This document shows, one piece after another, positions 4,701 through 59,700 of a DNA stretch of 64,000 nucleotides (positions are counted from its first letter, which is position 1; the number at the start of each line of letters is the position of its first letter). The stretch is from Haliclystus octoradiatus (Eukaryota; Cnidaria; Staurozoa; Stauromedusae; Haliclystidae). A program made the translations under genes and the position numbers. The stretch is from NCBI GenBank assembly GCA_916610825.1, contig OU744449.1, positions 19,809,344-19,873,343 of the forward strand. The letters run 5' to 3'. The notes beneath the pieces were generated by a model that saw only the letters and a list, made by a program, of their open reading frames with translations, was not told the DNA's origin and ran no database searches.

Positions 4701-7700
4701 AATATTCAAACAAAGGTGGGACAATTATGTATTACTAAGTAATATTGATTCCAAAGATAACAGGTTTCAGGTAGCTGTCTTTGAAAACTGTTTAGCTGAT
4801 GATGCACTAACTATTTGCAATTTTTCTTACACAACACAAAAAGAAAATAGAACAATACAAGAAATCATCACAAAGTTTGATGAATTTGCGATAGGACAAA
4901 TAAATGAAACCATGGAAAGATACACATTCCATAACAGAAAACAGAGAGAAGATGAAGAATTTGAGCAGATTTTAGCAGATATACATCGTTTAGCCAAAAC
5001 ATGTCAATTCTGTAAGACATGTATCGATTCCATGATAAGAGATCAGATAATTGTCGGCATTCATAAAAAGGAAACACGTGAAGATCTATTGAAAATACGA
5101 AAACTTGATATAAAACAATGCATAGACATATGCCGTGCTGCGCAATCTGCAGCAGCTCACACTAGATCGTTAATGTCAACGGATACAATAGACAAGATTA
5201 CAGATTACCATAAGCAAACAAAACCAAAAACACAGATGACATGCAAGTTTTGTGGTTATCAGCATGAATTTGGAAGAGACCTTTGTCCAGCATATGGAAA
5301 AGTATGTGACAACTGTGGGAATAAAAACCATTTTGCCAATTGCTGTAAAACACAAAAGCCTGCACAATACAAGAAAAGACAAAGCAACAGTAGAAGAAGA
5401 CAGCCTAAAACAGTTAATCAAATAGAAGAAGAATACACTAGTAGTGAGGAAGATTGCACAAGTAGCTCTGCATACGAATGGTGTAACGCAATATGCAATT
5501 CCACACCGAGACGAAAAAAGATGCTAAAATGCCGAATGCTGGTGGAAGGAAAAACAATAATTTTCCAAATCGACACAGGTGCTTCAATAAATATGATCCC
5601 AGAAAAGTATGCATCAAAGATAGAACCATACACTGGAGTTCTCAAAATGTGGAACGAGACAATCCACCATCCAGTAGGCGCTAGTCGAATGAGAGTAGTC
5701 AATCCTAATAATGAAAAACGATATTCAGTTCCATTTATCGTATTCAAAGATGATGAACGTCAACCAATTCTAGGTTATCAAACCTCTTTACAAATGGGAC
5801 TAATTACAGTCGAACACAAAAATTGTGACATTGTAGCAACAGTAAACACAGAACAACAATTCAGTCAAGTTTTTGATGAAGGCATTGGTGAGCTCCCAGG
5901 TATACAGCACCTCAAGATAAAGAAAGATGTCCAGCCAGTTGTCATGCCAAGTCGTAGAGTGCCGATATCTATTCGACCAAAGTTGAAAGAAGAACTTGAT
6001 CGCTTAGTAAAACTAGATGTCATATCTCCCATTGAAGAACCAACAAAATGGGTAAGCCAAATTGCAATTATTCCTAAAAAGTCAGGAAAACTCAGAATAT
6101 GCATAGACCCTCATGCACTGAACAAAGCACTTCTTCGAGAACATTACACATTGCCTATATTGGATGATGTCCTACATAACATGCGGAATTCCACAGTATT
6201 CTCCAAGGCTGATCTATCATCTGGATACTGGCATGTAAAGAGTTAGATGAAGATTCCAGTCGGTTAACGACATTTCAAACATGTTATGGTAGATATTATT
6301 GGAATCGTCTGCCGTTTGGTCTCAATGTCTCGTCAGAAATATTCCAGCGAAAATTGCTGGAAGCCTTCACAGATCTTCCTGGTGTTGTCTGTATTGCCGA
6401 TGATGTAGTAATACATGGCTCAACCACAGAAGAACACAATTCTCGATTAACACAATTTCTCAATCGGTGTCAAGATGTTGGTATCAAACTCAACTCAGAA
6501 AAGATGCTTTACAATATGGACCAAATTACATTCATGGGACACAAGATCACAAGTGCTGGTTTGAGCGCAGATCCTGAAAAGATATCTGCTATTTGCGCTA
6601 TGAAAAGTCCAACAAACAAAGAAGAATTGAGAAGGTTTTTAGGGATAGTCAACTATTTAGCACGGTTCATCAAGAACTCAACACAAATCTTGAAGCCATT
6701 GCAAAATCTGTTGAAGAATGATGTTCCTTGGAATTGGTCTAGCGAAGAAGACAATGCATTCAAACTCATCACAAAGAAACTAACTTCAGCACCTGTACTA
6801 GCATTCTATGACCCAAACAAAGAACTGGTAATAGAAAACGATGCATGTGAATATGGGGTAGGCAGCGCAATGCTACAAGATGGCCACCCTATTGCTTATT
6901 CAAGCAGAACCCTAACAGAAACAGAACAACGATATGCTCAAATTGAAAAAGAAATGTTGGCTGTCGTGTTCGGCCTAGAAAAATTTCATCATTTTACGTA
7001 TGGACGTCCAGTTAAAGTGATAACTGATCACAAACCACTGGTTGCTATCAGTAACAAGCCTTTATACAATGCACCAAAAAGATTACAAAATCTATTGCTT
7101 CGTGCATTAAACTATTCGTACAAGCTAATATATCAACCTGGAACATCGATTCCTGTTGCTGACGCATTATCACGCTCACCTGTTGAAGAGACATCTTACA
7201 TCTGTCCCAACCTGCACAATATAACTCTCCATCCGATGACAAATGGAAAACTGGACGAAGTTCGTGTCGCAACAGTGAAAGACCCAGTCATGGTGGCTTT
7301 AGGAGAAGTCATCAGGAAAGGTTGGCCAGGAAACAAACATGAGCTCCCTTTAGCAGTAACGCCATACCATAGTTACAGGGATGAGCTGACCATTCAAGAT
7401 GGTATCATTTATCGTGGAGAGCGCATAGTAATTCCAACTAACATGCGAAAAGAAATGAAAGACAAAGTGCATGCTGGCCATTTGGGTATCAATTCCTGTC
7501 TGCGTCGCGCACGTGAACTTATTTATTGGCCTGGTATGTCATCTGAAATCAGACAATTCATTGAGAAATGTGGAACATGTGCAACTTACTGTGATAAACA
7601 ACCGACAGAACCAGTAATTAATACAGAGGTGCCAATAGCACCATGGAAAAAGATTGCATCAGATCTGTTCTCCTGCGGTGGTTGTGATTACCTCATAACT

Positions 7701-10700
7701 GTGGACTGTTACAGCAACCTATTTGAAATCGATCGCATGCATGACACAACTGCAAAAACATTCATTGCAAAAACAAAGCCACATTGTGCTCGTTATGGGA
7801 TTCCTGAAATTATTATTTCTGACTATGGATCACAGTACACATCCAAAAATTTCAAAGATTTCATAGATACATGGAAATTATCCCACGAAAAGAGCAGTCC
7901 AGGAAACAAGCGTGCTAATGGCGCTGCAGAAGCAGCAGTGAAGATTGCAAAACGTCTGATGAAAAAATGTAAAGCTTCAGGACAAGACCCATTTTTAGGG
8001 CTTCTAAACATCCGCAATTCACCAACTGCAAGCATGAACTCCAGCCCAGCACAAAGATTCCTTGGACGAAGAACACAAACAAGTATTCCGACTGCAACTC
8101 AACGTTTAGAACATCGTCCTCCCAACTCAATCATAGAAGCTGCATCCAAACAAATAAAAAACTTGAAAGCAACCAAAGAAACCAACAACAACCTTCCTCT
8201 CCTTGAGAAGGGCGATACGGTACGCATGCAACCACTGGAAGACCACCAGCGCGAATGGAGGGAAGCTGTAGTGTCAAAGTGTTTGACTGGGAGGGCGTAT
8301 GAAGTCATGACCCAAGATGGTAAGAAGTATCGTCAGACAAGACGTCACCTCAGAAAAAAGACCATTTCGAGTCATTCAATGCCAACCAATGAAAGATCAC
8401 ATCAATCACATGATCCAATTTTAACAGATAACACAGCTAACGAGCATCCAAAAGCAGGCAGTCAACAAACAATCCCAAATGAAGACATTACATCAGAAGA
8501 AGAAAAACAACCAGACAACACAAAAGTGGGTCAATATGGGAGAGTGATCAAGACTCCTGCTCGTTTCAAATAATGACTAACAATATAGTATACATGACAA
8601 TACTTGAAAGAGATGATGTATGAATAGAAAAATAGTAAATAAATCAAAAAAATAAATTAACAAAAATAATATGATTACTAACATGAACAATATTTGGAAT
8701 TATAACATTGTAACAATCTATAAAGAGGAGGATGTTGAGTGAGACTACATGAGAAGGAGGCCCGGTGGGCAGGAGTTAGAGATTAGAATATGGCTGATTA
8801 GCAACTTGTATTATTCTATGTGTATGATCTTTATCTTGCAATATCTTCGTAATCCTTGTAAACAGAAGCACACAACAGTTACCACGCCAACATATGCTAC
8901 AAAGTGTATATATCACCTTTGGGGACAGAACGGATTTTGATAGAACTTTTATTCTATCTGTGGTCTCAAATCTATTTAAACTGTCAAATTTAACCCGGTT
9001 CCAGCGTTATTGCGTAGCAAAATGATAATCCTGCTGATGACTGATGTGTTAAGTTTGTGCTAGAAAATGTTAAAACGATATAGGCCTATATATTATATAT
9101 ATTGTATATAGGCCTAGCTTTTTTTGGAATATGTTATACTATAAGAATTGAAAAGTAGCCAAAGTTGGCCAAACACCACGGTCAAACTTCAAGTGGGACA
9201 CGAGAATCTCTAAAATACCATGTTATTTTAATACCATGGCCTGCCAATTTGGAAGGGGAAAGAGTCACGCAGTGCAAAAGTGAAACAATGACATGAGCAG
9301 ATAGAAAAACAAGTTATATCTAAATCTGCTGTGTCCCAAAAGGGGCTTAAGAAAATTCACAAAAGCTTTCACTGACTAAGAAGAAGCTCAATCTAAAATG
9401 TTTTCACAATCCCCATAATTATGAATTTAAACTTTCATAAATGGGCAAAACCTACCTCTTACGTAAATGGTATGCACAAACATTGCATGGGTAAAACTTA
9501 GAAAATAGTTTAATAAAATCTTTCATTTCACTCTGTTGATCTTCCAATGGTTTATCTGGATAATAAGCTGCCATACTATGTAAGAATCCCCAAGTTGAAC
9601 GGCCCAGTTCTTTCCTGTCTAATGGACAATGTTCAGTATTCAGATTACCAGAATGTGAGGTTTCACTTTGAGCTTCATTGTCATTTACAATTGCCTTCTT
9701 CTCAATCGCTTTTACCTAAACGAGTCAATCCAACGAAAAAGTTTAAAAATAAATAAACCATGTACTTAATGTATAAAAAATAGAAAATGGTACACATAGC
9801 AATTTTTAAAAGCGGCTAGGTACAACACGTCTCCCATGCCATTCACACTTTTAACTGCAGCAACGCAAAACGCATGCATATTATGAACGATACAAAGACA
9901 TAGGCTAAACAAAAAACAGTATTGAAACATAAATAAATGATAATAAATTGATATTAATTAACAACGCTACCAGGAAGCTGGATAACCCGGCATACTAGTC
10001 AGACATATTAACTGCTACCCACCTGGTCGATGAGAGTTTATGAGACACATAAGTAATTAAACTAGAATGGGTTGCATCACGTTGTATTGACCTTAACCAT
10101 TAACAGGTTCCTAACGAACCCAGGGAAGTGTGAAACATATGATTGAGGATCGACCGCGATGTAGTGTCGAGCCTTGTGATGATCTGCCGTGATCTGCTGT
10201 TGAGCTGTCATGTTTTGGCTAGCGTGACATGTAGTAGGCTACCTATCTGCTTGTTCAATTTTTATTCAAAAATGTGCCAAATGTAAACGGTAGGCCTACT
10301 ATTTCCAAAACCAATAAAGCCACGTTCTTGAATTTTGGTATACACCTGTAATCTTAAACCACTGGGAAATGCATTTGAGAAAGTTTATGCTAAATAAAAG
10401 GGGATAAATGTCAAAACTCAATTGACTGTAATTTAGTTGGGAATGCGTCTCATGACTGTATATGGCATACTCTTCCGGATCGCCCCTTTGCACTGTCAAA
10501 TATATCCAATAAAAATCTGACGGATACTCTGATAGTTATTAGTGCCCAACTGCCCATGATATCACATGATTGGGTAATTTGATTTTTCTTTTGGGGGAGG
10601 GAGGGGTTATACTATTACGCAAACTGTATAAAATTTTGCTCATATTCATAGCACCAGCAGGGCACGCAATTTCCACGTCATAGCCTAGGCCATGGCCCTT

Positions 10701-38200: not shown

Positions 38201-41200
38201 TAAAAAAGTTAAAATAAGTTAGTAAAATAAGTTTCACAATGTCATATTATACAAGGTTAATTTCGAGTTTAGCTAGTAGATATCTCTTTTCTTATTGTAT
38301 TTTCTTCGCAAAACTTTTTGATTGTTCTTGAACTGTCTTTTGAATGCCTCAGAATATATGCTTTCAACCTTTATAGCAAGCTTCCATTTTTTGGTGTCGA
38401 AATGCTGGCCTTGAGGCATCTTTTTCCCTTTCAAAGACTTTAACTGTGCTACTGCAGGCAGTCCACGGTACTGGTTCTCGTTAATCAAAGCATGAAATTT
38501 CGGTAGTTACATGCTACATTCAGATCCAATGGTATTAATGTAAAAGAAAATCATGCATGGAAGAGTAAGCATAAAGCTATGAACTGCTGTGTTGCTGGAG
38601 CTGTTATAACTTTTAGCAATTTCACAATGTATTAATGTCCAAACTTGGGCACTCGTTTATAAAAAGATAAAAAATGTTTTTATTTCCGCTCAGTTTATGG
38701 GTAATGCAGAAGCGTATATGCGATGTAGTCTTGTATGAACAATGCAAGATTGGTTTACGTCCTCACTAGCAGATTCAGATATTGCAGACTCCTTGCTGAC
38801 TCCTCACTTCAACATTCAGAATTTTCAGCATGGATTTCTTTTGTTGCTATTTCAGGGTTACACGATGAAGTACCAATCCCTTGAATATCCAACAGCATCA
38901 TTTTCTCGTTGAAGTATACATAAGTGAGATTCTAATATGGAGTCGACGCGGAGAAGACAGAAAACACGAAGTTAACTTCTCATAATAAACAATGTATTCT
39001 CTTCAACGATCAATCACCAAGAGAGAGAAACAACACGCATGCAAAATACACATAAAAGTTACTAATCACATGACAGTACGAATACAGTACAAGTACGAAT
39101 ACACTCAAACAATACAATTGCGTGAATAACATGCACAATACCTAAAATACCATATGAAATCATACGTTCAATACATCCTAAAGACAACACTTCACACAGA
39201 TATATGACTGAGACCAGGAAGACATGTTCACACGTAATTAGCATAAACAATATCAAAACTAAATCCTACAGTGAGCCAGTGTTTCCGCTTTTCTGAGCAA
39301 TTCCTTCTCTTTGCTATGTAAGTTCATTGAGCAGAACATCCCATTATTATTGACATATTGTAAAATTCCCAGGAATAAATTCCTCCGTCATGGTGAATTT
39401 GCCTTTGCAGTTTGTGCTTTGTCAAGTATGCAGGCCACTATCTGAATCTAGCGCCGAATCCAGCTGGGGATCTTTCGTCCATCTTTTGGGCAAGGATTCG
39501 GCAACTGCATGCATTTGGATTTGCTTCCTGGCATTTTCTTCTAGAGTGAGATCTCAGTTGTTGCTGATGACCTGCTCTGTAGTGGTGTTCTTTTGTTGCC
39601 AATTCAGGGTCAGACAATGGATTACCAACTTCTTGTATATCCAACAGCAAAATTTTCTCTTTAAAGTATACATAAATGAAATGATCCAGTGTTTCCGCTT
39701 TTCTGAGCAATTCCTTTTTTGCTATGTAAATCCATTGAGCAGAACATCCCATTATTATCGATATATTTTGTGAAATTATCAGGAATAAACTCCTCCATAT
39801 GGGCGAATTTGCCTTCGTACTAGTCAAGTGTGCAGGCCCATATCTAAAGCTAGCCCCAAATCCAGCTAAGGAATCTGGCAACTGTGTGCATTTGGATTTG
39901 CTTCTAGCATGTTCTTCTAGGGTGAGATCTAAGTTTTCGCCAGTCTGATTACCTGCTTTGCATTGGTGTTGTATGTTTTGACAACCCTAATTTTATTGGG
40001 GTCAGAAGCTATTAAAAGAATCTCAGAAGGCTCCTGACCCTAGTTTTACTTCCTTGACATTCAGCGATAATATTTCCAATGCATTCCATCCTCAGCAACT
40101 ACTGTTAAAAACAAACTTCCAATTGAAATATCATCTTTTTGGTTTTATGCATTTACCTGCTTTCATAAGAATGGCAATTGATGGAATTTATTTTTGCAAT
40201 AGATTTATTAGAGAAAGCAACATGATTAGTCCAGCTGGACAATTCTCATGAGGCATGTTTTTGTCTCTGGCAATGCAGCATTTTTATCACATAATGATAA
40301 ATAATATTTTCATTCAAAATGCTAACAAGAGCATGAATAGCGGTAGAGGAATTCTTCCCCAAATAGGCATACTGTTATGTAAGTACTGTAGACATAGCCT
40401 ACATTAAAAATACCAACTGTTTTTATGTGAAATTTTAAACTCTTTTTTGGGTTGTACTGCTTGTACTCCCATTCCATCCTATTACCATTTCATCAATAGA
40501 AGCCTCTTTGAAAGGGTAGAACACATTTTGATAGTTGGATAAAATTAGGCTAACAAATGGATCAATCTTTTCTTTACCAGATCTGTTTGGCTTTTCTGCT
40601 TCTTCGCCTACATGAATTATTGTTTGATAAATAGCAAGAAATTTTGCTCTAGGAAAAGGTTTGCTGTACCAAATCATGTGCAGGAAGTCATTTTTTGCCC
40701 ATTATCCCCTGTTAGTCGAAACCGACTAGGGTACTATTCGATGATCTGCATTCTGATTGGTTGCTCAATCGTTCACTATTTTGTCATAGTGAACGCTGGC
40801 AAGTTCCCTCGCAAATTCCAAAAAGTAAACAAGCGTTTTTCAAATGTTTTTGAATCAAAATGTTATACGAATTACGAGAGTAAATTATAATTTCTGTCCC
40901 CGAGAAAACAAAACAAGTAGCAAAATATGAGATGAAGTTGTTCAATGGTAAGCTATGCATACACAATTTTGATCTTATTCGACGGTAGCCAACTCGGGCT
41001 CGTTGTCTAATTGTTAAATAGTAGGCCTTTTATCTATGTCTTCGGCTATCAACACAGCCAACAAATTTTGTCAATTCTCATTTTGTGACAGGACCTCTGT
41101 AGACAAGTCTATTTAATGATTAGGCAACAAGCCCAGGTTAGCTTTTCTAATGGTCACTGAGGTCCAACAGGCGGCACAAGGATTTCATGTCAAAGAAATC

Positions 41201-44200
41201 AATTCAAACAAAACAATTTATTCACTTCTTGAATAATTAATTTTTAGATGAACACAAGGAAACTTGAACACGAGGAAAATTTATATAATTTATTCAGTTA
41301 TTTACCATTTCTGTTCGACTTTTTGCGTAAAATTATATTGAATATTCATAGAAACAATCGCGATTAGTTTTATTTGTCAAAGCAAACTAATAAGTGATCC
41401 CCTCTGAAAATTTCATGAACGGTTCATGAACCGTTCATGAACGGTTCGTGAACGTTAAATGGCACAATTTTTCATGAACAGTTTATGAACGTTGCGGAAC
41501 GTTCATGAACACAGAAAAATAGTTATTTGTAAAAGTTCATGAACCGTTCATAAACCGTTCATGAACCGTTCATGAAAAATTGTGCCATTTAACGTTCACG
41601 AACCGTTCATGAAAAATTGTGCCATTTAACGTTCACGAACCGTTCATGAACCATTCATGAAACGTTCATTATTAGTGCCATTTAACATTCATGAACATCT
41701 TGGTAAGAATAAATCTAATTAACAACAAAGGTATATGAACTTAGATCTTTGCTTTTATTCAATGAACAAATGAAACAGAACAGGAAATGTAATACAATAT
41801 AATACATGAAAAGGTTAAATATTGAATTTAGATGTAATAGTTATAGATTATGGATCAAAGCTATTTTTCATCTGGCATAACACCTGGCATAGCAGCTCAG
41901 GCTGGCGAATGAGGGTTTGATCAGATGGTGATGGATGGTATCCAAGATAAAGGAACTGGAGGAGAGGATACCATAGAGAATACCACATTTATTTTCTTGT
42001 CCCTACAAAATGATAAAGACAATCATGTTAATTTAGGTTCATTTTGTGTGAAGAAGTATAAAGAAAGAGGTCTGATATATAGTCAGTTACTAAGTTATAG
42101 ACTATAGGGCCATTTACACTGCAGCAAAATAGGCACGGTACTCGTCAATTAACACATCAAAGGTGTGAAGGTGTCAAGTGTTTTTGAGCACGGGCCAAGC
42201 AAAAACACTGTCTAAACGGCTTTTTCAGACATTGAAAAGCGGCACCGTGCCTACTATTTTGATCGGGCCGAGATCATTTCTAGAGGTAGTCTCGGCCCGC
42301 TCAAAAAGTGGGCACCGTGCCGTTTTGCAGTAATTATGACGTCATCGTAGAAGTTGCGTCTCTTTACAGTGGAATTCCGAGGTTTTCTAATAAAATCAGT
42401 AACAGACTAAAGATTACCAAAGCTAGATAAGCACATTAAGCATATTTTGTTACGTATTTCTTTTGAAAATTAATGAAGTTTCTGTAGTATAAGGTTTAAT
42501 TATGCAAATTGTAACTACGAGTGCGGAGCGTAAATTTAGATGTGTGTTTTGTCACAGAAATACTGATCTGGCGTGGTAGCATGTTCAGGAGGTGAAAGAC
42601 TAACCCAAATGTATTTGAATTTTGCTCAATGGAGATAGGAATGTAACAAAAATTTAAATATTATAATTGATGAAAAACATAGTGATTTTCAGTTCAACGG
42701 AATCCTTACAAGTTATTTACCATAATTGAATCTCAATTTATCGAATTTCACCTGTAAAACCATTAAATAATGAGAAACCTATAATTCAGTTTGTAAGTTT
42801 TCAATCTCGGCCCGCGTAAAAATAGGCACGGGCGATCTTGAAAACAGTTTTTAATAAGCTGTGTAAACCCTGAAAAAAAACAGCACGGGCCGCATTCTTG
42901 TTAACACCTCGGGTGTTAATTGACGAGTACCGTGCCTTTTTTGCTGCAGTGTAAATGGCCCTTATATGAAGAACCGAGAGCATTGGCTAAGAACATTTGA
43001 TTTTAGCTTGATTGACTCCCTGCATTAGAATGGCAACTAAATAAAACGATAAAAGTAGGCATTTGACATGGAGTTTATTTGATTTGGTCTTACTTGATGA
43101 CATCGATGTTTCAATCTCATCTTTCACTAAAATTAAACGAACATTGATATGCATGTCCATTGTCCAGTCAAAAGAGAGAGAAATTGAGTCTTAAATTATA
43201 AATTACAATGAGGCAGATAAAAGCTGCTGGTGAGAGTAACTCTCGTGCAGACTGCGTCAAACCAGAACAAGAACATTTACCAGTATTGCATGCATGCATA
43301 ATTGCATATTTCAGACATGAGAATTCTGTTTTGCCAATTTTGAAAATCCTTATTCACATATTAATTGACTTCTTATTTGAGTATGAGGGTTCGAATACGG
43401 GGTCGAATACAAACACACGGACGATTCATAAGTTCATAACAATTTATTTCGTAATCATCTCATGTTTCAATATATATAATTTCTATAATGTTGTATGATT
43501 TCGTTTCGAATGTAGCTTCTCATACTGAAGTTTCTGAATTAGTCTAGGCTTTTCTAAAGGTATATTTTGCTTACATAATCAAAATTATTTTAAAATATTT
43601 CGCAAGCTATAAAAATAACATAATGACGTAAATCAACACAAATAACATGACGTTTATATTAAAAAAATGGCGGATATAAGATTAATCGATCACTCCCCCT
43701 TAGTGAGAAGTTTAATTTAACAAATTTTGAACGATAGATGAGATCAATCTTTATTCATATAATTATCTTATTCTTTTTATACCAGCCAGGATTTCTTCTG
43801 TACCGTTGATGGCTTTTGCATCTATTTCTTCTTTTGTTGCCAATAGAATAAGCTTTGCAATAGGTCTATCATAACTTCCAGCTTTGTTTTGAATCTTCAC
43901 CTTCCTGACAAGTCCATCTGTACCAGGGAACGTTTCAGTTACCATAGCGACTGGCCATATTGCTCTCGGGGTAATTCCATTTAAGTTGTTCTTTTTTTCC
44001 AAAACAATATCTCCAACTTCCAGGTTTCTTCTTTGTGAAAACCACTTATTTCGACATAATAGACGATTTGGCATATTCGATGACCAATAATTCCAGAAAA
44101 TTTGAATACGCTTCTGAATTGATGCCATACGATCTTTTGGATGTATTTTATTTTCATCTTGTGGCTGTGGAAGAGTCAGATGATGTCCATACAGCAAGGA

Positions 44201-47200
44201 ATTTGGTGTTATAATCTCGTTCATATCAATAGGATCCGCACTTGAGTTTGGCCAAAGTGGTCTTGAATTTATAAGATAAGCTACTTCAGCAAGAGCAGTC
44301 ATCCATTCATCAGGCTTTAAAGTGTTGTTATAGCAATCTGCCATGGCGTCCAATGCTTTTCTGACCAAGTTGACAAATGTCTCAACAACTCCATTGTGAT
44401 GGGACGCAGTAGGACAATTCCATAACCATTGGAAACCATTTCCTTTAATTCCGTTTTCTAGCACTTTTATATCCCATTCTTTTACTAACTTTTCTACTTT
44501 TGGAGATGCTCCAATTAAATTTGGTCCATTATCGCTGTACAGTTGTACAGGCTGAATTCCTTTCAAGCTGACGAATCTCCTAAGAGCCATTAGAAATTTT
44601 TCAGTTGAAAGACCTTCCCCACCTTCCTGGTCGTAACAGAACTCAAGGTGTATTGCCCTTGTGACGGTGCATACAAATAAGGCTACATGAGCATCTTTCA
44701 CAGTTCCACGGTATAGCTTCGTTTTAAGTGGACCAAAGAAGTCGACAGCAGATGACCAGAAGGCAGGTTTGTCACAGTCCAGTCGAAAACTTGGGAGTTG
44801 ACCCATCTTTTGTTCCAACAGAGGACGTTTCCTTCTTCTGCAGTATAGACAGTTCTTTCCAATTGTTTTCAATATTCTGTTGACTCCAATTATCCAGAGT
44901 CCTGATTGTTCAATCGCAGATCGTGTTCGGTTGACTCCGCAGTGTCCTGTTTGTTCATGAAATTCTTTCGTAACCATGTTGATGACTTTTTTGTGATTAG
45001 TATAATGGTCATTTTCTTTGTTCCTTTTACATTTCGGAATGATTATTGGTGCTGCTAAGTCGGGCTTGAAATCTTTAAGGTGTTCTAATCTTCCACCTAA
45101 TCTGTAAATTTTGTCTTCGTCATCAATGAAAGGACAGAGTTTCTTGAAATTCTTATCGTCAAAGTTAGTATTTCTTTGCAGAGCTTGATATATCTTCATT
45201 TTACCTCCTTTGTGATCAGTCTTGTTTGATTTTTCTGAAATTTTGTTAATTGCTTCTTCCATTGAGTTGCTATCTGCTGCAATTTGTAGTATTTGTTTAC
45301 ATTCTTCATCACTCATCTTTGTAATTGTGTTTGCAACCGAGAAGTAAGCATTCACCTTCTTTGCTATACAGGTCTTCTTTTTGCGCTTTTTTCTTTCAGG
45401 TTTTATTTCAGTCAAATCTTTTCTTAGCTCAATTTCTTTAGTGATATTTGCTGTTTCAAATTCTGGAATAATCTTTTCTTGTAAGAATTTCGGTCCTTGG
45501 TGCCATTGCTCTAAGTCTACATTGTTCGGTTTTGTCAGTGCATCTGCAGCATTCTCTTTAGAAGGAACATAATGGAAATCTTCAATCTTGGTTGTTTCTT
45601 GAATCTCGTTAATTCTCGCTTCAACAAATGCCTTCATCTGAGGAGTTCTTGATCTAATCCAATGCAATACCACTTTAGAATCAACCCAGTATGAAATTGT
45701 GCTTGGTTTGATCATTAATGCTGAGACAATGTTCTTTACTAGTCGAGACATTACTAGTGTAGCAACTAATTCCGTTCGAGGTATTGTCCAACCTTTGACT
45801 GGTGTTACAAAAGATTTGGCTGCTACAAAGTGTACATTAAATGTGCCATCTTCTCTTTTCTGTCGTAGGTAAACGCATGTGCCAAAAGCTTTATCTCCGC
45901 CGTCGGAAAATGCATGCAGCTCAGGCAATTCGGTGTTGTTTTCTTCAGTGATGCAGCGCTCAATTTTGGTTGACAGCTTTCCTTCTAATTGTTTGAATCT
46001 ATCCACCCAGTCATCAGCATCTTCTCCCACTATGGCTGTGTCCCAATCATATTTTTTTCTCCACAGTTGTTGTAAAGGAATTCTCAAGTTTACCAATGCT
46101 GGTGACAGAATTCCGAGAGGGTCCCAAACTTTGGCTATCATGCTTAAAATGATTCTTTTTGACAGTTTATGTTCTTGGGTCTTTGAAGATGCATCAATTT
46201 CAATCTTTGGTAGTTTTTTCAATTTCAGTGAGATTGTATCTATGTCTTTCTCCCAGTAGTGACCCAAAATGGTTGTATCACGATTTTCTGATAGGTTATT
46301 ACTGTCTTCAATCTTCTTGTTCATTTTTTCTTCTAATTCAATGGAATTGGAATGCCATTTCTTTATTTCAAACTTTGCTTTTGATAACAGTTGAGTTGTT
46401 TCTTTGATGACTTGTTCTGCTTCTCTAGGTTGATTTCTGGAGCTGGCAACATCGTCCATATAGATGTGATTCTTTACGATGCTTGATCCAATTGGATAGT
46501 CCTTTCCAAATTTTGTTGCCAAATAGTGAAGACTTTCCTGTGACAAATCAGGACTTGGAGGGTCACCAAAAACAAGTCTTTGCCATTCATAAGCAGTTGG
46601 GTTTTCATTTCCTTCTTCAATCCATAGGAATCGATGATACTTTCGATCTTCTTCAGAAATGCTGATCATATTGAACATTTTTCTTATGTCTCCTGTGAAT
46701 CCAATCTGTTGCTCTCTGAAACCAATGAAGACCTTGAACAATGAGTTTAGTAAATCTGGCCCCTTTTCCAATGCTTTAGCTACTGATTGTCCACGGTAGA
46801 TCTTTGCAGAGTTCCAAACTACTCTTTTGGGAGTTGATGCACTATCATCTCTTTCAACTAGATGGTGTTCTAAGTAATGGGCCATTTCTCCTTCTTTGAG
46901 TTCTACCTTTTTCACAAATCCAGATTCTATTACTTCTTGAATTGCTCTTTGGTAGTCCTCCAATTTGTTTGTTTCTTGCAGTCGTTTTACTTTCCTCTTA
47001 AGATTGGTTGAAACTTCTTTGTAATTATTTGGTAGTCCTTCTGGATAGCCAGGTTTCCAAGGTAATCTGACTTCTATTCTCCCATCTTCATTGATTGTCG
47101 TGTTTTCTTTTGCTATCTTTATAAATCTAGCTTCTTCGATTTCCTTATCTGTACAAACACAGCGTTGCGTTGTGTTAACACCAACCAAATCTGACATCAT

Positions 47201-50200
47201 TAGTGTGCTCATATTTTCAGTAGATGATATGTCTGTTTCTTCTGCTAGTGTGACTGATGTGACTTTTCTTGTTGCTCCTGACTTCTTACTGACATGAGTT
47301 GTTCCACCAACGATTGTCCATCCTAATGGAAACTCGATTCCAATTGGGGCTGATTTGCTGCTCTCTTTCGTCATTCTTTGTAATTCTGTGTGTAACTCTT
47401 GAGCATCTCTCCCAATGATAACATCAATCTCACCACCATCTGTGTCTACAACTTCCTTGATTTGATTCAAATGTTCATTTTTTGCAAAGAATTCTTTGTG
47501 AAGTGATGCTGCTGCGCCACATGGTCTTTTCATTGCATAAGCTGTAATTCTTCCTTTCTCTGCCATGGGCTCCAAACGTCCTACAGTGAGTTCATACTTC
47601 TGTGTGACTTCTTTATGATGGCTTCCTCCAACGACTTCATAATGAATAGTAGTGTCTTCACCTTGAAGGCCTAATGATTCTACAAAGTTTCTTCGAACCA
47701 GAGTTGTATCAGCACCTCCATCCATCAAACATGTTGCAGCTCTAATTTGTGTTGTACCATCAGCATTTTTATAACCAGTTTTTATCCAGATCTTTAGTAC
47801 AGGTAGTCTTGTTGCTGTAGATTCTTGTGAACTGTTGAGACGTTTCGTTGTTGTGTTAGTTGATGCTGTCCTCTGTGTGATATTGGCTGTTGAGGCTTCT
47901 TGATTTGAATATGTACTTCTGTGCAGTAAACTGTGATGTTTCTTTCTACAATGTTGACATGTTACTTCTGATTTGCATTGTGGTCTAATGTGACCCTTTC
48001 CAAGACATCCAAAGCAATGGCCTTTGCTTTTACAGTATTCAGATCTCTCTGCTACTTCAAATTCTTTGAACTTGTTACAATCTTCTAATCCATGTTTTCC
48101 ATTGTTACACAGTTGACAATTGAGGTCATTGGTTGTTTGCAAGACGTTGACTTTTGCTTCTTTGAAGTTCCTTGACTCTTTCTTTGATAATGTTTGCTGT
48201 TTCTTTTCTGTTCTGTAAGAATTTGATGATAACAGTCTTCTTTCCAAGAATTCTAAAATATAGTCGGCTGAGAGTTCTTCTTCTTTCATGTTCATTTTTC
48301 TTGCGATTCTGTTTTCTTGTGCCAACTGGTCTTCAATTTGATCTTCGAATTCCGCTCCTGTCTTTCTCTTCAAATCTTTGATGAATTCCTCATCTTCTGT
48401 ACGGTTTCCTTTCCCAAAATCTTTTAGGTACATCATATGCGTACGTATTGTTGTGACAAATGTTTGGATTACGTTTTGGTCTTTATCTTGTATAGGTTTT
48501 AATTTTCGGAAATTCCACATCAGTTCATCAGATATTTTTTTGTCAGTTACAACTAACTTTAACGCTTTCCATGCTTCGACTAATGTTGAGCGTCCTTCAA
48601 TAGTTGTATGGTAAGACTGTGGTATTGATTTTTCAAGCCATTGTAGCTTGACATCATCATCCAAAACTCCGGCATTGTTCATTGCTGAAGTAAATCGCTT
48701 TTGGAAGGTTGGAAATCCTTTAAATTCTCCATTCCATGAATTGGGGGTGAATCCAGCTAAACGAATAGATGTTTTGTTTGAGTGTGTTGCCTTGCCCTCT
48801 ATGTTAATTGCTCTGATGGCTGCAACTGCAGCAGCTTCAGCTGCTGTTTTTGATAAATCTTTGAGTAATTCTATTGTGATTATGTTGTCATCTCTTTTGG
48901 TTGCATTTCCACTTTCGTTTTCTTTGCTTTGTTGCCCCTCTTCATGGGTGAGTTCATCCTGATGTCTTTGATTTCCTGCTGTGATTTCTTTTTCTTTGTT
49001 ATTTTCTGTTGGTCTTTCTCTTTCTACAACAGAGTCTGCGTCGTCTCCGTCGTTGTTTACATCGGTGACGTCATTTTGATCATTTTGTTCGAAAGAGGCT
49101 GATTCATGATGGCTGCTTTCACCTCCTGCGTTTTCTTCATTAATGTTTACTTGATTATTTTGCGTTGCGGCGGCGATCTCTAACGCGCGTTTGTGAGTTT
49201 TTTCTGCTTCATTTTCTTCAAGTTCATGGATCATCTTCGTAGTTTCTGCTCTGATTTCAAAGTGAAGTTTTCTGCATTCATCAACTCTGTGATCTATTTC
49301 CAATTCTAATTGGCCATTTAAAGCGTTATTTTCATCGAGCACGTCTAGGTAAGTCGACGCTGTTTCTTCTACTTGTTTTCTAGCTTCAGTTACCTTGAAT
49401 AGTATTGACTTCCAAGTGCCTATTGCTACAAATTCTTGTTCTTTTATCGTTGTAAATTCTTCTATTTCTCTATTATAAGCCTTTGATCTCCTCTCAAATC
49501 TCCTCCGAATCGCTTCAGCGTCGTCGGCCATTCTTGATTAATTTCTTTTTATTTCTAATTTCTTTATCGAGACTTTAATTCGAACTATGATTCGAAACTG
49601 TTTTGCCAATTTTGAAAATCCTTATTCACATATTAATTGACTTCTTATTTGAGTATGAGGGTTCGAATACGGGGTCGAATACAAACACACGGACGATTCA
49701 TAAGTTCATAACAATTTATTTCGTAATCATCTCATGTTTCAATATATATAATTTCTATAATGTTGTATGATTTCGTTTCGAATGTAGCTTCTCATACTGA
49801 AGTTTCTGAATTAGTCTAGGCTTTTCTAAAGGTATATTTTGCTTACATAATCAAAATTATTTTAAAATATTTCGCAAGCTATAAAAATAACATAATGACG
49901 TAAATCAACACAAATAACATGACGTTTATATTAAAAAAATGGCGGATATAAGATTAATCGATCAAATTCAAATTTCAAAAATAGTCTGAAATTAAGTATA
50001 TCTAGATTATTTGTAATATCTTTCAATGGGGGCAAAGGGCCAAAGGCTATTACTAGAGTTCGGAAGGCGGAAATAGTCTGAGACCTGCTAAAAGTCTGAA
50101 AATTGTCATATCTGATATTTACAGAATGATAAGCATCGCCGAGGAAAATTAGAAAATAGGTACTGTCGCTCAAAGGATAAAATTTAAAATATTAATTACA

Positions 50201-50785: not shown

Positions 50786-53700
50786 TATGTAAATCGACTT
50801 AGATTTGACTTTCTCTTCTCAAGTTTGGCTAATTAGGGTACATAAACACTTTTTAACACAATAGAGTAATAAACATGTTTCACACATATTGAAGGCTTTA
50901 CAGATCAGCAGCACAAAAAATGGCGTAAAGTAAAATCTGCCAAGAAAAATGTTTAATCTTACCATCAGTCTCTTTTGTGGATGCATTCACAGGGCTGAAA
51001 AGCGCTGCATTTTTGTCTAAATTAAAGTAATATAAAGTTGAATGTTTATACTAGAGTGCATTGTAAATAGAGTAATAGTTATATGGGGTATACTATACCC
51101 TATGAAGCCATATAGGGTATGCCTATATAGCCATATAGGGTATGAATAAATAAGAAAGTAATAATTAATATTCCATAATAAGTATTGACGACCGTTCATC
51201 GGAAGAATTAGTATCACATTGTCATTTATATATCATAACTAGTTTATGCCTAATAAATGCATATATTAATACTCACTGCTAATCTTCGAAATATAAATGG
51301 CATTTGTAAATTTTTCTTGAACTTTGTAGTCCTGGCATATACAATTTCTCCCTCTTTGTATTCTCCGACTGCTTTTATTGGAAATATTGTATTTAACTTT
51401 GCGACTGTTGTAAGTCTTGTAATTGGTTGTCGTCCCATTGGTAAAGAACATAAATAAGCCAAGAATAAATTATTTTCATTGATCTTTGAAGTCTTTAAAG
51501 CCATAATTATTTGATAATAAATGAGACTTCAGACAAGACTTTTACGGAAATTCAAACAAAAGAATTGCTAACGCCATTTGAACACCTTGCTGTTTTCTGA
51601 TCGTAATGCTGCCAACGGAGTTCAAGGCTCACACCTTGTATTTCAAAGTTGTCTCTATAGCCACATAGAACTTCTGGCGTACCGCTGTGATGCTATTTTT
51701 TTCAGTTTTAAATCGTGATTACATTGATTTTAAAAGTCACGCACCGTCGTTGTGATTTTCATTTATAATTTTATTGATGATTTTTATTATTATAAAGACG
51801 AGGAATTATTATCCCTCTTGTTTAAAATGACACGAGTTTCTCCGTGTCGCGGTATCATCCTTCTATTGACTATCACCATTCCAGTCAACCATCAACATGC
51901 GGTACTTGATCAAGATCGGTACAAGATCCCAAACTTGTTGGTCGCTGGTACAAGTTGCTACTTGACACACTGTTAAACAGTAGGGTATAGCTCCAACAAC
52001 TGCTTGCCAATATATCAATATTTTCCACAAATAATAACTGTTTCAAGCAGTATGCATTATAGCATTAGCAAAAATTTACAAACTTTCATAACAAATTAAG
52101 TAATGAAATTAGCCTTATTGAAGATTAATCAAAGATATCAAAGTACCGTCTCGTTACTCCAGAGTTAACCCCTCAAATTTGACATTTATATAGTATATGT
52201 TATCACATGTCATTCTAGGGCCATTATATAGCTGAAACCGGGGCTGAAACTGTAGGGTTCTTTGTAACTCGCCTGTAGGCTACAGGCTTTTGAATATTGA
52301 TAGAAAAACAACAACAAAAATTGATGATGCAAAGTACAATATCCAGAATAATCATTCAGAAATCACGCTTAAACACGATATAATCAGATCGTATTTCAAA
52401 TTTTCAATAGCATGTCTACAAGTAAACCACGTTGCCGTAATTCATCCTGGCTGTCGGATCAGAATTTGAAAGATGACATGGTTAAATACGTTGGGCAAGG
52501 TCTTAAACAAAGTGAAATGTTGAATTTCTTAGAGAGAGATTATTCGCACTTATGCTTGGAGTCTAAGGAGCATAGATCGTCGCTTACAATACTTTGGTAT
52601 TAATTATGTGAACAAGGAGGTTACTGTCGATCAAATTCGGGAAGTGGTCAAAAATGAGATTGATGGACCAGGAAAGCTTCTCGGCTACAGGGCAATGTAT
52701 CTGAAAATACGTCGAGTGCATGGACTCAATGTACCAACAGGTCTTGTTCACGATATGATGTATGAAGTTGACAAAGTAGGACTTGCTGCACAAGCACCTT
52801 TGAACAAGAAGAAGAAAGCTAAGGGGCATTTTGTTACAAAGGGAGTGAATTGGGTCCAGTCACTCGATGGGCATGATAAACTCATGGGCTATCAAAACAG
52901 TACTTTTCCCTTGGCTGTATATGGCTGCTTAGATACAGCTAGTAGGAAATTATTATGGCTAAAACTGTGGGTCAGTAACTCAGATCCCAAACTTGTTGGT
53001 CGCTGGTATCTGGAGAATTTATATGTGACAAAAGTGATACCCTCAATAATAAGAATGGACAAAGGTAGCGAAACTGGTGTGATTGCCGCAATGCACGCAT
53101 ATTTGATTCAGGATTGTAGCGATATGGACCGAATTGACACTGTAATATATGGGCCATCCATTTCAAATCAGGTGAGCCTATCGGATAAAAATTTTCACTA
53201 TTCAAAATTAGTATTTGAGGAATAGCATGTTTCAGTCTACCTTCCACGACGAGAAATTATAAAGAGCTATAATAGAACCGTACAGTTAAGACACTTAAAT
53301 CAATTTACTATAGTATTTGCAAGTGTAAAGGCAAGATCTAATTCGATTTTTAAGTGCAATTTATGCTAATATGTAGGGTATAAGTTGTTATCTACGTGGG
53401 TTAAAATTTATATAAATAGGTGGATAGATATAGATACAGGGTGAAACATTTCCCTTAAGGATAGAAAGGATGCCCCAGTGCATATAGTACCATATGAATT
53501 CGAACATGCTGCAAGCCATGTGTCAATGAGAGAGATTTTATTTTTAAACTCTTCCAAATTGAAAATTGACACGATTTGCTATATATTGTCTTCTGATTTA
53601 TTCCCAAAAATAGATTGAGGGGTGGTGGAGGGAGCTCAATGAGCGACTGGAAAAGTATTTCAAAGTACACCTTGCAAGATTGAAGGATGAAATGCACTAT

Positions 53701-56700
53701 GTCCCAACTGATAATACTGATCGGTAAGAGATTGAAAAAGTTTTTTATTTTAAGATCATTCTACAGAAGGTTCTGCAGGTATGCAAAGCCTGATGACCAA
53801 TAGTGTTGGTTGGTATTTTTGTTCTTCTGATCGGATAAGATTTGCAGTGGTATTATTGATTCAGATTATTTTGGATTTCGAAACTTGGCTGCTTATTTGG
53901 TTTTTGTAGTAATTAATGTGTTACAGCTTCCTTTTTACAGAAAATAAAGTTTCTCAGTGTAATTATAGTCACCTTAATTTGGCACTTATCTACATCAATT
54001 ACCATATCAAAATTATTCCTGCTAATTTTTTCCTACATCAAATTTTTTCTATAAATAGCCTTATCGGGTAAATCCTAGTGCAACCCAATCTCTAGTCTCA
54101 TATCACCTTCAATATATTACTTAAATTATGTTTTCCGATTGTAGAATGCTGCTAGCCTACATATTTATCCCTGTCATCCAAAAAGAATTGGATATCTTTC
54201 GTGAAACTATCTGGAACACACATCGAATCAGAAAACAGAAGGATACGATATTGCCTGAAGGAGTTCCAAATCATATGTATTGTTTTCCAGAGCAGTATGG
54301 AATGAGTAGATGTGGTAAGCGTAATATCATATATCTGTATAAAGTGTAATACGGTACTTCGATAGTATGCCATGGCGCTAATATGCAATTGAATTGGCCA
54401 TAGTTGTAGCGCTAAGGGCCTAAGGGGATGCACGGCGTCTGCTTTTTTGATATTCAAATTTCTCTTTTATTGCTTCAAGTGCTTATCACTTTCTAGAAAA
54501 AATCCTTTTATTTATTTTTCAGGTTTTCCGGTTACCGAGCAACAGCTAAAGGAAGTAGCAAATCAATCCGGAGTACTCGAGCTAAGTGAAGGTTATTTGG
54601 AGTCAGAATGCAGAGAAAAATTTGAGCTTATTCTACCTAATCCTGAAAATTTAATACCAAACCAAGTGTATGATGCTTATTTGTACCTTAAGAATAACAT
54701 CAATAACATATAATAACTGGATTATAGAAATATCTAACTCAAATTTTAATTCACAAAAAGATAAAAAATATATCCATTGTTGACAGTATTAATTAACGTT
54801 AATAAATTTGATACTTTACTTACTTTCTTACAATTAAGAGAAAAAAAATAAAAAAAATCAGGTTATTACTTTATTGTATTATTGAACTTCATTTCTGTCC
54901 TTATTTTTCACACATAATGTCATTCAACTTTAATATGTCACAATATTTATTACATAGCTGATGTCCACTGCAAAATGTTTCCATCGCAAGTATTGATAGA
55001 TTCCCTGTCGTGAATAAGTATTGATTGTTATCATCAGTAAGGTTACTCGATGCGATTTCAGGGTCTATCATATCGAAATTGCATCCCTGTATGTCAACGA
55101 CAATCAACTCTTTATTACTTTGCACGTAAGTATAATGAGCCAAGTATTCTGCTTTCTCCGCTATTTCATCTCCATCATTATATAGAATGGTCCCGTCATT
55201 ATTCATATATTTTTTGAATTTACCTTCAAAAAATTCCTCAATAGTGTAATAATCATTGTCCTTCTTTCCCATAAAAATTTTACCGTAGCGTAAAGGTTCA
55301 CCAAATAACTGTGACATTTTGACGTTTTTAACCACAGTTCCAGCTAACTTTTCTGCAAAATATTTCGCCAAAGAGTGCATCTGGACTACTTTCCTCGTGT
55401 GCTGCTCAACACTCTGATTTGTTACCTTCATGTTACTGAGAGCACATGGTTTGTACCGCTTTACCACCCATGGCTTTCCTTCAAACTCTTTATGACTTGA
55501 CGTAGCTTTGTGCGCATAGCGAAACGCACCTTCCCCCAAAAGGCGCTCAGAAATACAGAATTCTGCAGGCTTTGGCAGGGCCGACCAAGTCATGGATTCT
55601 AGGTCGAATGCCTCTATTTGAATGACACTTGCCTGTCTTTTTACTTCTTTTCCCAGTTGAAGCATATGGGCGATTGACAGGCTTCGCGGGACGATTATAT
55701 CACCTCCTCTCTTTTTCTTCGGACTTGGAGCAGATCCGGTTGCTTTCACTCTCTTTGCAGGGACTATAAAAAGTGACTTTATGGTTGAAGTTTGTCTTCT
55801 GGTCTCCGTTGTAGGCCCATCTGTAGCTTGATTACTACTGTTGCTTGGTCCAGCCACTGGCACAATAAACCTGACATGAATAAGTTTTTTATCAGGAATC
55901 TGATTGACGTCCATGCAAGAAGGGCCTTGTTCTCCAACCAACACGTCACATTCGTAGCCATCTCCTAATGCACAATTTTTGGAATAATGCCTCAAGCAGG
56001 CAGTCTTTATTGTTGATAGCGTCACCCCATCATCACTGACATTGTCATCATCATTACGATCTTTGATGCTCACAAATTCTCTAGCACCAATTCGAGAATA
56101 TTTCTGCGCTTTGCCACTGACTTCTGCACTGAGTCGCTGGACAGTGATGTCTGCTCCAAATTTGAATTTATTTACCACATTATTCCGTGGAACACCTTTA
56201 CGTTTTTCTTTCATCATTAATTGAAATTTGTTCCAATTGTTTCCTGTCATTGCTTATTACAATACGATAGTTTTGTTAAACTTAAGCTGTGGGCCCTTCC
56301 ATTTTATACTTTCTGCTAGCTTTAAAATTAGGTAGTCCAGACCATGGTCTCAACCAAACCAAGTCTCTGGTCTGCTCTCAACAGCGCTTAACTCTAACAT
56401 ATTAGCAGCATGCGCTAAGAAAACAGTTAAATGAATTATCCTTCTATATGACCAACAGTGTTCGCTTTCCCTATCAACCGGTAGCAAAATTTGAAGCGTG
56501 TGGCGCTATGATACTAATTCCATTGAAAGTTGGGAGAATAGCTAATAGACAGTCAACATTTTTTGTTGGATTAGCATCAAATAGTCAATTAGCGTCTATA
56601 AATTTTTGATAGAATCTGCAGATATCCATACCTATTTAAATACTTGCAACTATTTCAACAGGTGGGATATTAAAATTATCAACAATATTATTAATAAAAT

Positions 56701-59700
56701 TTAAACTGACAGTCCAAGAGGTAGGCCAAACGGAAAACACACATCTTTGAAATTGATATTTATGTCGACCATGTTACATTTTTAGTTAAGCGTCTATACT
56801 TTAGGGCAAACTAGCTGTGGGTGTAGAGACTATACAGTTAATGGCTGTTAACCCGCTAAGCTCTCAATATTGTATAGGCTAGAATCCACATTGTTGCTCA
56901 GAATATTGGTTCTATTTTCTAGTTATGTTATAGTTGTATAGACAATGCCACAATGCATGCTGGTCTATGGCGGTTCTCGGTCAGCGTGCTTTTGAACAAA
57001 TAAATGAATGAAATATATGAATGGAAAGTTTTTGCTATGCCAGCGCTCAACGTAGCTAGCTACAACAATTTTTTTTAACAATTTAACTTATTATCTTAAA
57101 TTTGATATATTGACAACCTTTTGAGCCTGGAGTTCCACCCTACTGTTTTAACAGTCTGTCATAGCTAGACCTAGACCTGTTGAAAAGACATAAGCATATG
57201 TGAATTATTATTTCCTGTGAAACAATATAATTGATTAATTGTAACTAGACTATTGAAATATTTAGGTTGGACATATCCAAATCCAAACGTGAATTTGCGA
57301 ATGTATGATAATGATGATTGATGACGATGATTTCAAAACACTCCCGAGAATTATACTTACATATTAATCTTGACTCCTGATGATTAGTGATCGTAAGTGT
57401 ATACATCATTTACATTGCATAGCCAAATAAACCATATCATAGCCATAGTCTAATATATTTACTATACTTCTTTTCAACTTGTACTACACATTCCCATGTC
57501 TTTTAGATATATTGTATACCATATTACATTACATTAAAGATATGAAATAGGCTCAATGTCAGCATTTGACAGAGCTAAATATAACAGAAGGAATCAAAGA
57601 AAAATGTACAAGATGGCAGTGTTTTAAATAAAAAATAACTTAATAATAAACATTTAATTTATGAAAAAGTAAAAATATTATACTATGGCAACGATGGGCC
57701 TAGTGATAATTTTTTTACTATGGCAACGATGGGCCATCATGTAAAAATATTATACTATGGCAACGATGGGCCACGTGGTAATTTTTTTTTACTTTGGCAA
57801 CGATGGGCCATCATTTAAAAATATTATACTATGGCAACAATAAAAAAAACGCTATTGCAACGATGGGCCACCATACACATGGTCAATAAACCATTCTTTC
57901 ATTCAAGTTCTCTTGCTAATAATAAAAGCAAGCAGAATTTGTGACATAAAATTTACTTTTTGTTGTTACAAAGATACTGGATTATGTTATTTGTGGCCGC
58001 TCTTATCAATTAAAATTCACGAAGTTGAAACTCGAAATAGATAAACACTTCCGCTCTAGACTTGACACTTCTCTTCTCGAGTAGCGTTGTCATTATGTGG
58101 TCATTAGTTTTTGCGAAGATAAAGTTATTGCTGTATTATGAATCTGTAAAAGAGTTTAAAAGCATCGGAATGTTGCTAAAAATTAATGGAAACTCTTTGA
58201 ATTTGCCATGCTGTAATTTATTAATTAATTTCCCGATATTGTTAAAAATAGCCGACTATCGACAAAAACCGATGCTACGGATACAATTGATCAGTTTCCT
58301 GCTGCTGATTTTGTGTTTTTATCTTCATGCTGCAACTTTATAGATTAATCTTTCTGCTGATTACATTCTAGCAGTCACTGCCATAACTGCCTGTTCCTCA
58401 CTGGGGGAGGGGTCTAATTTTCTGACAAAATGGTTGCACAGTTTCACGATTTCTTTATCTGCTATCAAAATTGCCTATATTTGACTCATGGTTTTTTATT
58501 CTCAAAATCTATATTGGGGAGATATCATCCCCCAGCCCTGCCAGGGTTTAGTGCCATGCTAACAATGAACAGTAAACATACCTGATGGGATACATAAGGT
58601 ACAAACAGGATAAAGCAAAACTGTTCCTTTAAAACATAAAGATTATGGCATTTATTAGTATTATTATTATTAGATTATGGCAATTATGGAATTTCTTGGT
58701 TGAGCATGATAATGAACCAAACATATATAAAGCATTGGGCAAACATTCACAACATTTAAAGGAAAAATTGTGACTATCTTTATAACAAATTGCAAAAATC
58801 GAAAGATGTCGAAGGGGTGGCTACTTGCTCAACAACAAAATCACAGGCAACATTATTATTTATGGGATATTTCCCAGAGAATATATGGCAAACAAGATTA
58901 CTCGTTAATGTGCCTTTTTACGATACAAAATTATAAACATGCATTCGCTTTTCATAACCATTATAAAGATTACACACAACAGCTGTACAAAAAACGTTTG
59001 ATATATATCAAATTATCAGTTTAAAAAAAAAATGTTATCAAGTGGTGCACATGGCTGAATCCCAACACTGTACTACCAATGTGATACCATAATTAGGACA
59101 ATTAAGAACAGTTCATGAACTTCAGAGGTGTAGCTTTGTTATGGACATTTCATGAACCGTTCATAAAAATTTTCATAAACTTGAGAAGAATAGGTTTATT
59201 ACTCATTTCATGAACCAGTTCATGAACGCGTTCATGAACGGTTTGTAAACTTTAGAAGAATAGTTTTAATATTAAAATTTCATATACCAGACTCCGTTCA
59301 TTAGCTGTTCATGAACCGTTCATGAACCGTTCATAAACTTTGGAGGAATAGTTTTAATATTAAAATTTCATATACCAGTAACATTGTATTCATGAACTCT
59401 GTTCATGAACTTTAGAGGAAGAATTTTATTATGAACATTTCATGAACCAGCTCATGAACATGTTCATGAACATTGTGTTCATGAACTCCATTCATGAACC
59501 GTTCATGAACCGTTCATGTACACGTTCATGAACCCTGTGTTCATGAACCAGTTCATGAACTGTTCATGAACCGTTCATGAAGTTCATGAACTCGTTTCAC
59601 AGGGGATATGTCAATAATTTATGCATGTGAGATTCGCTCAGAGGGCTTCAGCAGAATAGTTATGAGCAATTCTGAGCAGCTTCGGCAGTGTGCCGCAATG

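Follow-up and report, generated by a model that had tools for sequence, protein, structure and literature searches.

Does an alpha-kinase gene that faces an integrase-like transposase gene belong to the mobile element in which both seem to lie, and does it serve that element? The question is raised by a stretch of 64,000 nucleotides from the staurozoan Haliclystus octoradiatus (contig OU744449.1 of assembly GCA_916610825.1; C5:19809344-19873343 in our numbering), here called the window, which was compared with the 261.9 Mb of the searched genome. Window positions 51948-57875 almost certainly hold an IS3EU element with an alpha-kinase gene of its own. This copy is a degraded DNA transposon with the features of IS3EU, a known superfamily. 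Considered as a whole, the best explanation of the locus is in our opinion a mobile IS3EU element with a working kinase partner, which we hold for rather probable.

The element, its ends and its two genes

The element as present (51948..57875, + strand) is delimited by homology to other copies, which begins at 51948 and ends at 57875. Of its termini only the right one remains, so the evidence on end pairs and target duplications comes from sister copies. In this family, termed family A, the true ends are TATGGTGGCCC..GGGCCACCATA, i.e. of the TATGG..CCATA type. Homology among the copies stops at TATGGTGGCCCATCGTTGCCATAG, beside unrelated sequence, and the inverse of TATGGTGGCCCATCGTTGCCATAG closes the right side. 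Target duplications in other copies, which an earlier sequence-only reading of this DNA had proposed to look for, were indeed found. Among 61 loci scanned for ends lying 600-3000 bp apart, 22 possess both true ends and 20 of these are flanked by a perfect 6-bp duplication (not counted are rows in which an end was matched with an inner unit of an array, and one shorter alternative for L035). In the remaining two, L030 and L035, no perfect 6-bp duplication is present, and duplications of any other length between 3 and 9 bp are lacking in all 22 copies. The long outer inverted repeats are arrays of ~37-bp units, with 5 to 8 units per side in the eight complete copies that were counted and 4 at the sole end seen of L061. 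In the window the right outer repeat (57683..57875, − strand) comprises five copies of GGCCCATCGTTGCCATAG and runs to the true right end ..GGGCCACCATA. Over the first 60 bp, compared ungapped, left and right ends are equal at 59 positions in L011, 47 in L008 and 44 in L007.

IS3EU elements end in TA..TA, usually duplicate 6 bp of their target and comprised 45 Repbase families in May 2022 (PMC10045372). Fungal members that bear a TET gene also make 6-bp duplications, with ends of the form TAYGG..CCRTA in rust fungi (PMC12730594). Inverted repeats longer than 30 bp occur in the family A copies as well as in a sister family with a HECT gene, and ends of this type are found in family A, in the HECT family and in a third, diverged family B. 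A 6-bp duplication flanks, besides the 20 family A copies, the two copies of family B and the single HECT-family copy of which both ends were read. The ends, the duplications and the integrase-like transposase are thus shared with IS3EU, also called GingerRoot (PMC10045372, PMC12730594).

Two related groups were considered and rejected. Ginger1 elements have a Gypsy-integrase-like transposase too and are accompanied by protein-modifying enzymes (OTU, Ulp1), but differ in TGT ends, 4-bp duplications of CCGG type and an extra domain fused to the transposase (PMC2836005), whereas the element here has TATGG ends, 6-bp duplications and a separate second gene. IS481EU encodes a related class of transposase, but resides in parabasalids, has TNT..AYA ends with duplications of about 4, 15 or 25 bp and codes for a single protein (PMC10045372); TATGG..CCATA ends and 6 bp do not fit there. 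A search of Rfam gave no match. The pattern of the end units had seven exact matches in contigs of other genomes, all in bacterial records, and these are regarded as chance.

As the sequence-only reading had recognized, the element contains two convergent genes, a four-exon integrase-like transposase gene on the + strand facing a kinase frame on the − strand, with AATAAA downstream of both. The transposase gene extends over 52412-54713 with GT/AG borders. Exon 1 (52412..53171, +), placed by homologues and a donor site, covers the DDE integrase core, and exon 2 (53614..53723, +; match to P0235 and splice sites) contains an IEGWW motif, which we take to hold the third acidic residue. Exon 3 (54145..54314, +) follows from a match to P0160 and splice sites, exon 4 with the stop (54523..54713, +) from a match to P0162 and a splice site. 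With L061 as reference, the window frame contains one extra base near 52551. The window piece reaches 22.9 bits with the Pfam profile rva_4, under the cut-off of 26, which is passed by all five integrase homologues tested; one of them additionally shows a weak HTH_21 match. These matches would fit an IS3EU transposase but do not prove it. In IS3EU no HHCC zinc domain precedes the core; the profile search gave no zinc-domain match in the window piece or in the five homologues. Named relatives of the transposase are cnidarian.

The alpha-kinase gene (54901..56250, −) is an open frame of 449 amino acids that matches PF02816 with 110 bits (cut-off 21.3). It had been described as intact, and no stop interrupts it; the catalytic and zinc-binding residues are in place. 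K264, E338, K347, N350, H372, D386, Q388 and D396 occur in 45 of 45 homologues, and the residues of the zinc site are nearly as constant (H430 and C433 in 43, C437 in 42 of the 45). The protein shows the fold match, the ATP lysine, the catalytic aspartates and the His/Cys zinc site of an alpha-kinase. The N-terminal residues 27-135 make up a separate domain that is conserved and for which a ubiquitin-like (beta-grasp) fold is suggestive only. The host alpha-kinases TRPM7, MHCK-A, eEF2K and ALPK1 are ~19-26% identical to the transposon kinase, which differs from them in this domain of its own and in having no channel or calmodulin part. TRPM7 is its best match in PDB. An origin of the TRPM6/7 kinase domain from the transposon was considered and dropped, since PMC13143021 derives that domain from ALPK2/3 by shared intron positions.

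The sequence-only reading had known of no transposon family that encodes an alpha-kinase. This is out of date, because one sentence of PMC12730594 reports such a gene opposite the transposase in TET-bearing fungal IS3EU elements, with TET/JBP located between the two oppositely oriented genes. A literature search for alpha-kinases together with DNA transposons or transposases listed no further paper of relevant title; Repbase lay outside this search, and animal entries with a kinase may exist there. In the window no TET/JBP gene lies between transposase and kinase, and as only ~190 bp separate the stops at 54713 and 54901, the element is an IS3EU with a kinase and is not TET-bearing. It is further unlike its fungal relatives in its animal host, its inner inverted repeats, its end arrays of ~37-bp units and the HECT gene of its sister family.

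Partner genes in related elements and other genomes

The proposal that a mobile element carries both genes is borne out by a second family A copy and by family B, which also hold the convergent pair. L061 (C2:16.83 Mb) is the one other copy of family A with both genes near full length and is 94-97% identical to the window DNA. Both its genes are frameshifted, ~308 bp of intron are gone and the stretch read includes no left outer end. In family B the transposase pieces show 43-66% identity, and the first 16 end bases are common to both families, after which the ends differ. Its copy on C1 (34366302-34372220) is flanked by the duplication ATAATC and contains the convergent transposase, an open kinase frame of 324 amino acids and a separate N-terminal kinase frame. 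A copy on C4 has the perfect duplication GTCGTC; the copies on C8 and C2 lack a right end at the spot predicted from the C1 copy. The kinases of families A and B are only ~37% identical and yet occupy an equal place in equal orientation.

In the whole genome 61 transposase matches form 44 loci and 50 kinase matches form 28 loci. A convergent kinase lies at most 1.7 kb from eight of the 44 transposase loci; within 6 kb and in any orientation ten pairs were observed, compared with 0.06 expected by chance.

Four transposase loci, of 31-32% identity, have no kinase near. They represent the sister family mentioned above, in which a HECT-domain gene (PF00632, 39 bits, cut-off 23.9) is convergent to the transposase. 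One element is whole (C2:22759676-22767461, from L076 1777 to L036 2734), with TACGG..CCGTA ends that agree at all 40 positions compared and with the duplication ATTTAG. In the other three copies (C8:15.67 Mb, C10:4.40 Mb and C2:35.59 Mb), of which one end each was read, the same right end is found. The HECT gene stands convergent beside all four transposases, as an open frame of 740 amino acids in two copies and with stops in one. Three HECT matches depart from this pattern: no listed transposase is near those at C8:8.93 Mb and C7:10.79 Mb, and a 23%-identical one lies 3.3 kb from the transposase at C11:3.82 Mb in divergent orientation. With HECT in the place of the kinase in the sister family, the second gene varies among the IS3EU lineages of one genome. 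As far as checked, a HECT gene in this convergent place is new, the word being absent from the main text of PMC10045372 and PMC12730594. The further idea that kinase and HECT proteins share an N-terminal domain found no support (hhalign probability 0.1, with one HECT sequence).

Outside this genome, the named kinase relatives are cnidarian and hemichordate. The best 120 of 285 kinase matches (117 with a contig size) were compared with the best 120 of 662 integrase matches, and the two sets share three exact longest-contig sizes above 20 kb (268778, 171206 and 162400), against 0.0024 expected by chance from jittered sizes; probably these three contigs of other genomes hold both genes. Family B kinase matches (29 contigs from 60 matches) added no further shared contig. 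In the predicted kinase protein P0020 the sequence opens with the N-terminus of a transposase and continues with WPIVAIA, which corresponds to a translated end unit; this protein is a further trace of such an element in another genome. For five linked pairs the distance matrices of kinase and transposase correlate with r 0.75, a value reached by 2 of 120 permutations, true order included; this is weak evidence that the two genes may have descended jointly.

In a tree of 125 kinase sequences all 122 that are not from PDB form one clade (support 0.856), with family B outside all others and family A inside a clade of 61 members (0.963). The only outgroups of this tree were three PDB sequences, short joined pieces that do not form one clade. 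The name "TRPM6-like" is borne by 6 of the best 120 of the 285 kinase matches and by 1 of the 60 family B matches. According to PMC13143021 some cnidarian sequences of this name consist of the kinase domain only and are misnamed; the string "transpos" has no occurrence in the text of that paper available to us. Judged by their sequences, these kinase-only proteins are relatives of the transposon kinase, so that orphan animal kinases filed as TRPM6-like gain a home beside an IS3EU gene. In rust fungi alpha-kinases are expanded or belong to a selected set of genes (PMC4469406, PMC5295586, PMC4150398). They may be IS3EU genes as well, and the expansions (PMC4469406, PMC5295586) may be the same phenomenon.

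The proposed role of the kinase and the competing explanations

If the element works as the cut-and-paste of its superfamily suggests, the transposase would bind the end arrays, cut and join, and would also move internally deleted copies in trans. The kinase would be a working second protein of the element and not passing cargo. Most likely it would phosphorylate either a host protein of chromatin, silencing or repair or the transposase, and so let transposition proceed. That the kinase serves the element is what we would presume with some confidence. The argument for a second enzyme as transposition helper is the constant place and orientation, the conservation, the replacement by HECT in the sister family and the added TET in fungi.

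A wider proposal, for and against which we see about equal probability, is that IS3EU offers a standard convergent slot for a protein-modifying enzyme, filled according to lineage by an alpha-kinase with an N-terminal domain of its own or by a HECT E3 ubiquitin ligase, to which TET/JBP comes in addition in fungal elements. The product of this slot would act on host regulation or repair and thereby enable transposition, and many animal "TRPM6-like" kinases and HECT ligases would be transposon genes. At least, the kinase and HECT partners hint that protein-modifying enzymes accompany IS3EU elements. If the slot truly swaps a kinase for a ubiquitin ligase, it would be a natural experiment on the host step that limits transposition. 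The element also exemplifies a route by which signalling enzymes can be multiplied within genomes.

A more specific function, which is possible but which we rather doubt, would be anti-silencing, the kinase phosphorylating for instance histones or silencing proteins in analogy to the putative role of TET/JBP in fungal IS3EU. TET enzymes of elements that also possess a kinase have been proposed to evade methylation-based silencing (PMC12730594), and cleaved TRPM6/7 kinase domains phosphorylate nuclear histones according to work cited in PMC13143021. Repair proteins or the transposase are equally conceivable substrates.

Somewhat less probable still, and in our judgement unlikely, is a kinase that was captured once and is carried passively between the ends, as passenger or relic without any role in transposition. 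In its favour stand the deleted copies. With 68 bp of the left inner inverted repeat of the element as query at least 40 matches were obtained in the genome, and 30 loci (L001-L030) were examined with 1.5 kb on each side. The sequence-only reading had asked for copies with both genes, and such a pair does exist in L061, but 25 of the 30 loci hold neither gene whole because their inner repeats are only 350-1073 bp apart. For these copies we favour movement by proteins made elsewhere over decay, since their 6-bp duplications are perfect. Copies without the kinase spread, so it is dispensable in cis, and the HECT family does without it altogether. On the other side, a passive passenger would hardly keep its position and direction unchanged in fungi and between two families with kinases so far diverged, nor would eight active-site or structural positions be expected to stay invariant in 45 homologues.

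Several observations weigh against a working kinase partner in general. Neither of the two family A copies with both genes is whole. The ratio of nonsynonymous to synonymous substitution (dN/dS) gives no guidance: for the kinase it is 0.56 between window and L061, from two copies only with 11 synonymous and 24 other changes; in the transposase exon pieces it is 1.36, a value spoiled by a frameshift, and 0 for the third piece of 74 codons. Two transposase loci (C4:19077214-19083696 and C4:21104414-21106976) share their strand with the kinase, which lies at distances of 1.3 and 4.3 kb. The genome searches also revealed IS3EU-type transposase loci, such as C5:18211769, without a kinase or HECT partner. 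Conversely, around 18 of the 28 kinase loci, many of them short and broken, a distance of 6 kb contains no transposase match. One solitary kinase (C6:23688702-23689724), 41% identical and with an open frame of 415 amino acids, has no transposase near and is either an intact solo copy or a host gene. The sequence-only reading would have been contradicted by ends that enclose only the integrase or by kinases mostly at host loci; among the 30 end loci and 28 kinase loci neither outcome appears cleanly.

Very improbable is an element bounded by the inner inverted repeats and residing inside an unrelated larger repeat. Repeats of ~60 bp had been taken for the termini, and they are real: the left arm lies at 51963..52018 (+; arms I16, I5 and I6), the right arm at 57102..57161 (−), and they could be remnants of an older unit. 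They are not the element ends, as the flanks are shared outward. Both repeats stand on one strand in the window as well as in 25 of the 30 loci, with identical or almost identical bases at the 14 positions that adjoin each repeat on its outer side, and the flanks beyond stay similar far outward among the copies. Exceptions are, on the left, the window copy (L003 = L031), L029 and L040 and, on the right, L025 past its first 16 bases; the diverged copy L040 still shares part of the right flank. Because these flanks are shared by nearly all copies read and the 6-bp duplications occur at the outer ends, the inner repeats are subterminal.

That the kinases are host genes beside which the transposon lies by chance or insertion bias, as the solitary kinase loci might suggest, has next to no probability, given the excess of pairs over chance and given that on C1 and C4 the family B kinases are enclosed by the ends of the element, which are flanked by perfect 6-bp duplications; for families A and B the explanation is refuted, though it may still apply to some solitary loci.

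The window copy and its surroundings

The left outer ~480 bp of the element are gone from the window copy and are found nowhere else in the window, save for the shared end array. The broken side is marked by a junction stretch (51902..51950; direct repeat D7), in which 51924-51950 repeats 27 bp of transposase exon 1 (52982-53008) without a mismatch. This filler could have originated by template switching in gap repair. A different dispersed repeat (51650-51901) adjoins the break; it has ten other matches, seven of which end at 51901.

Kinase fragments elsewhere in the window, already reported from the letters alone, are present as weak, degenerate pieces within 38830-40181. In another part of the genome, C11:5583469-5588892, four same-strand kinase matches follow each other within 5.4 kb, all with stops, and this looks like a decayed kinase cluster.

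The window also contains other mobile sequences. A BEL/Pao retroelement at 43326-49964 combines an open frame of 1924 amino acids with a pair of 367-bp end repeats of 100% identity. At 4573-8573 a Gypsy-like element encodes protease, reverse transcriptase, RNase H and integrase domains in two frames that overlap. A dense array of TTCATGAAC palindromes occupies 59099-59582. Finally, a frame at 26042-27049 matches DUF4371, a domain that occurs in transposase-like genes.

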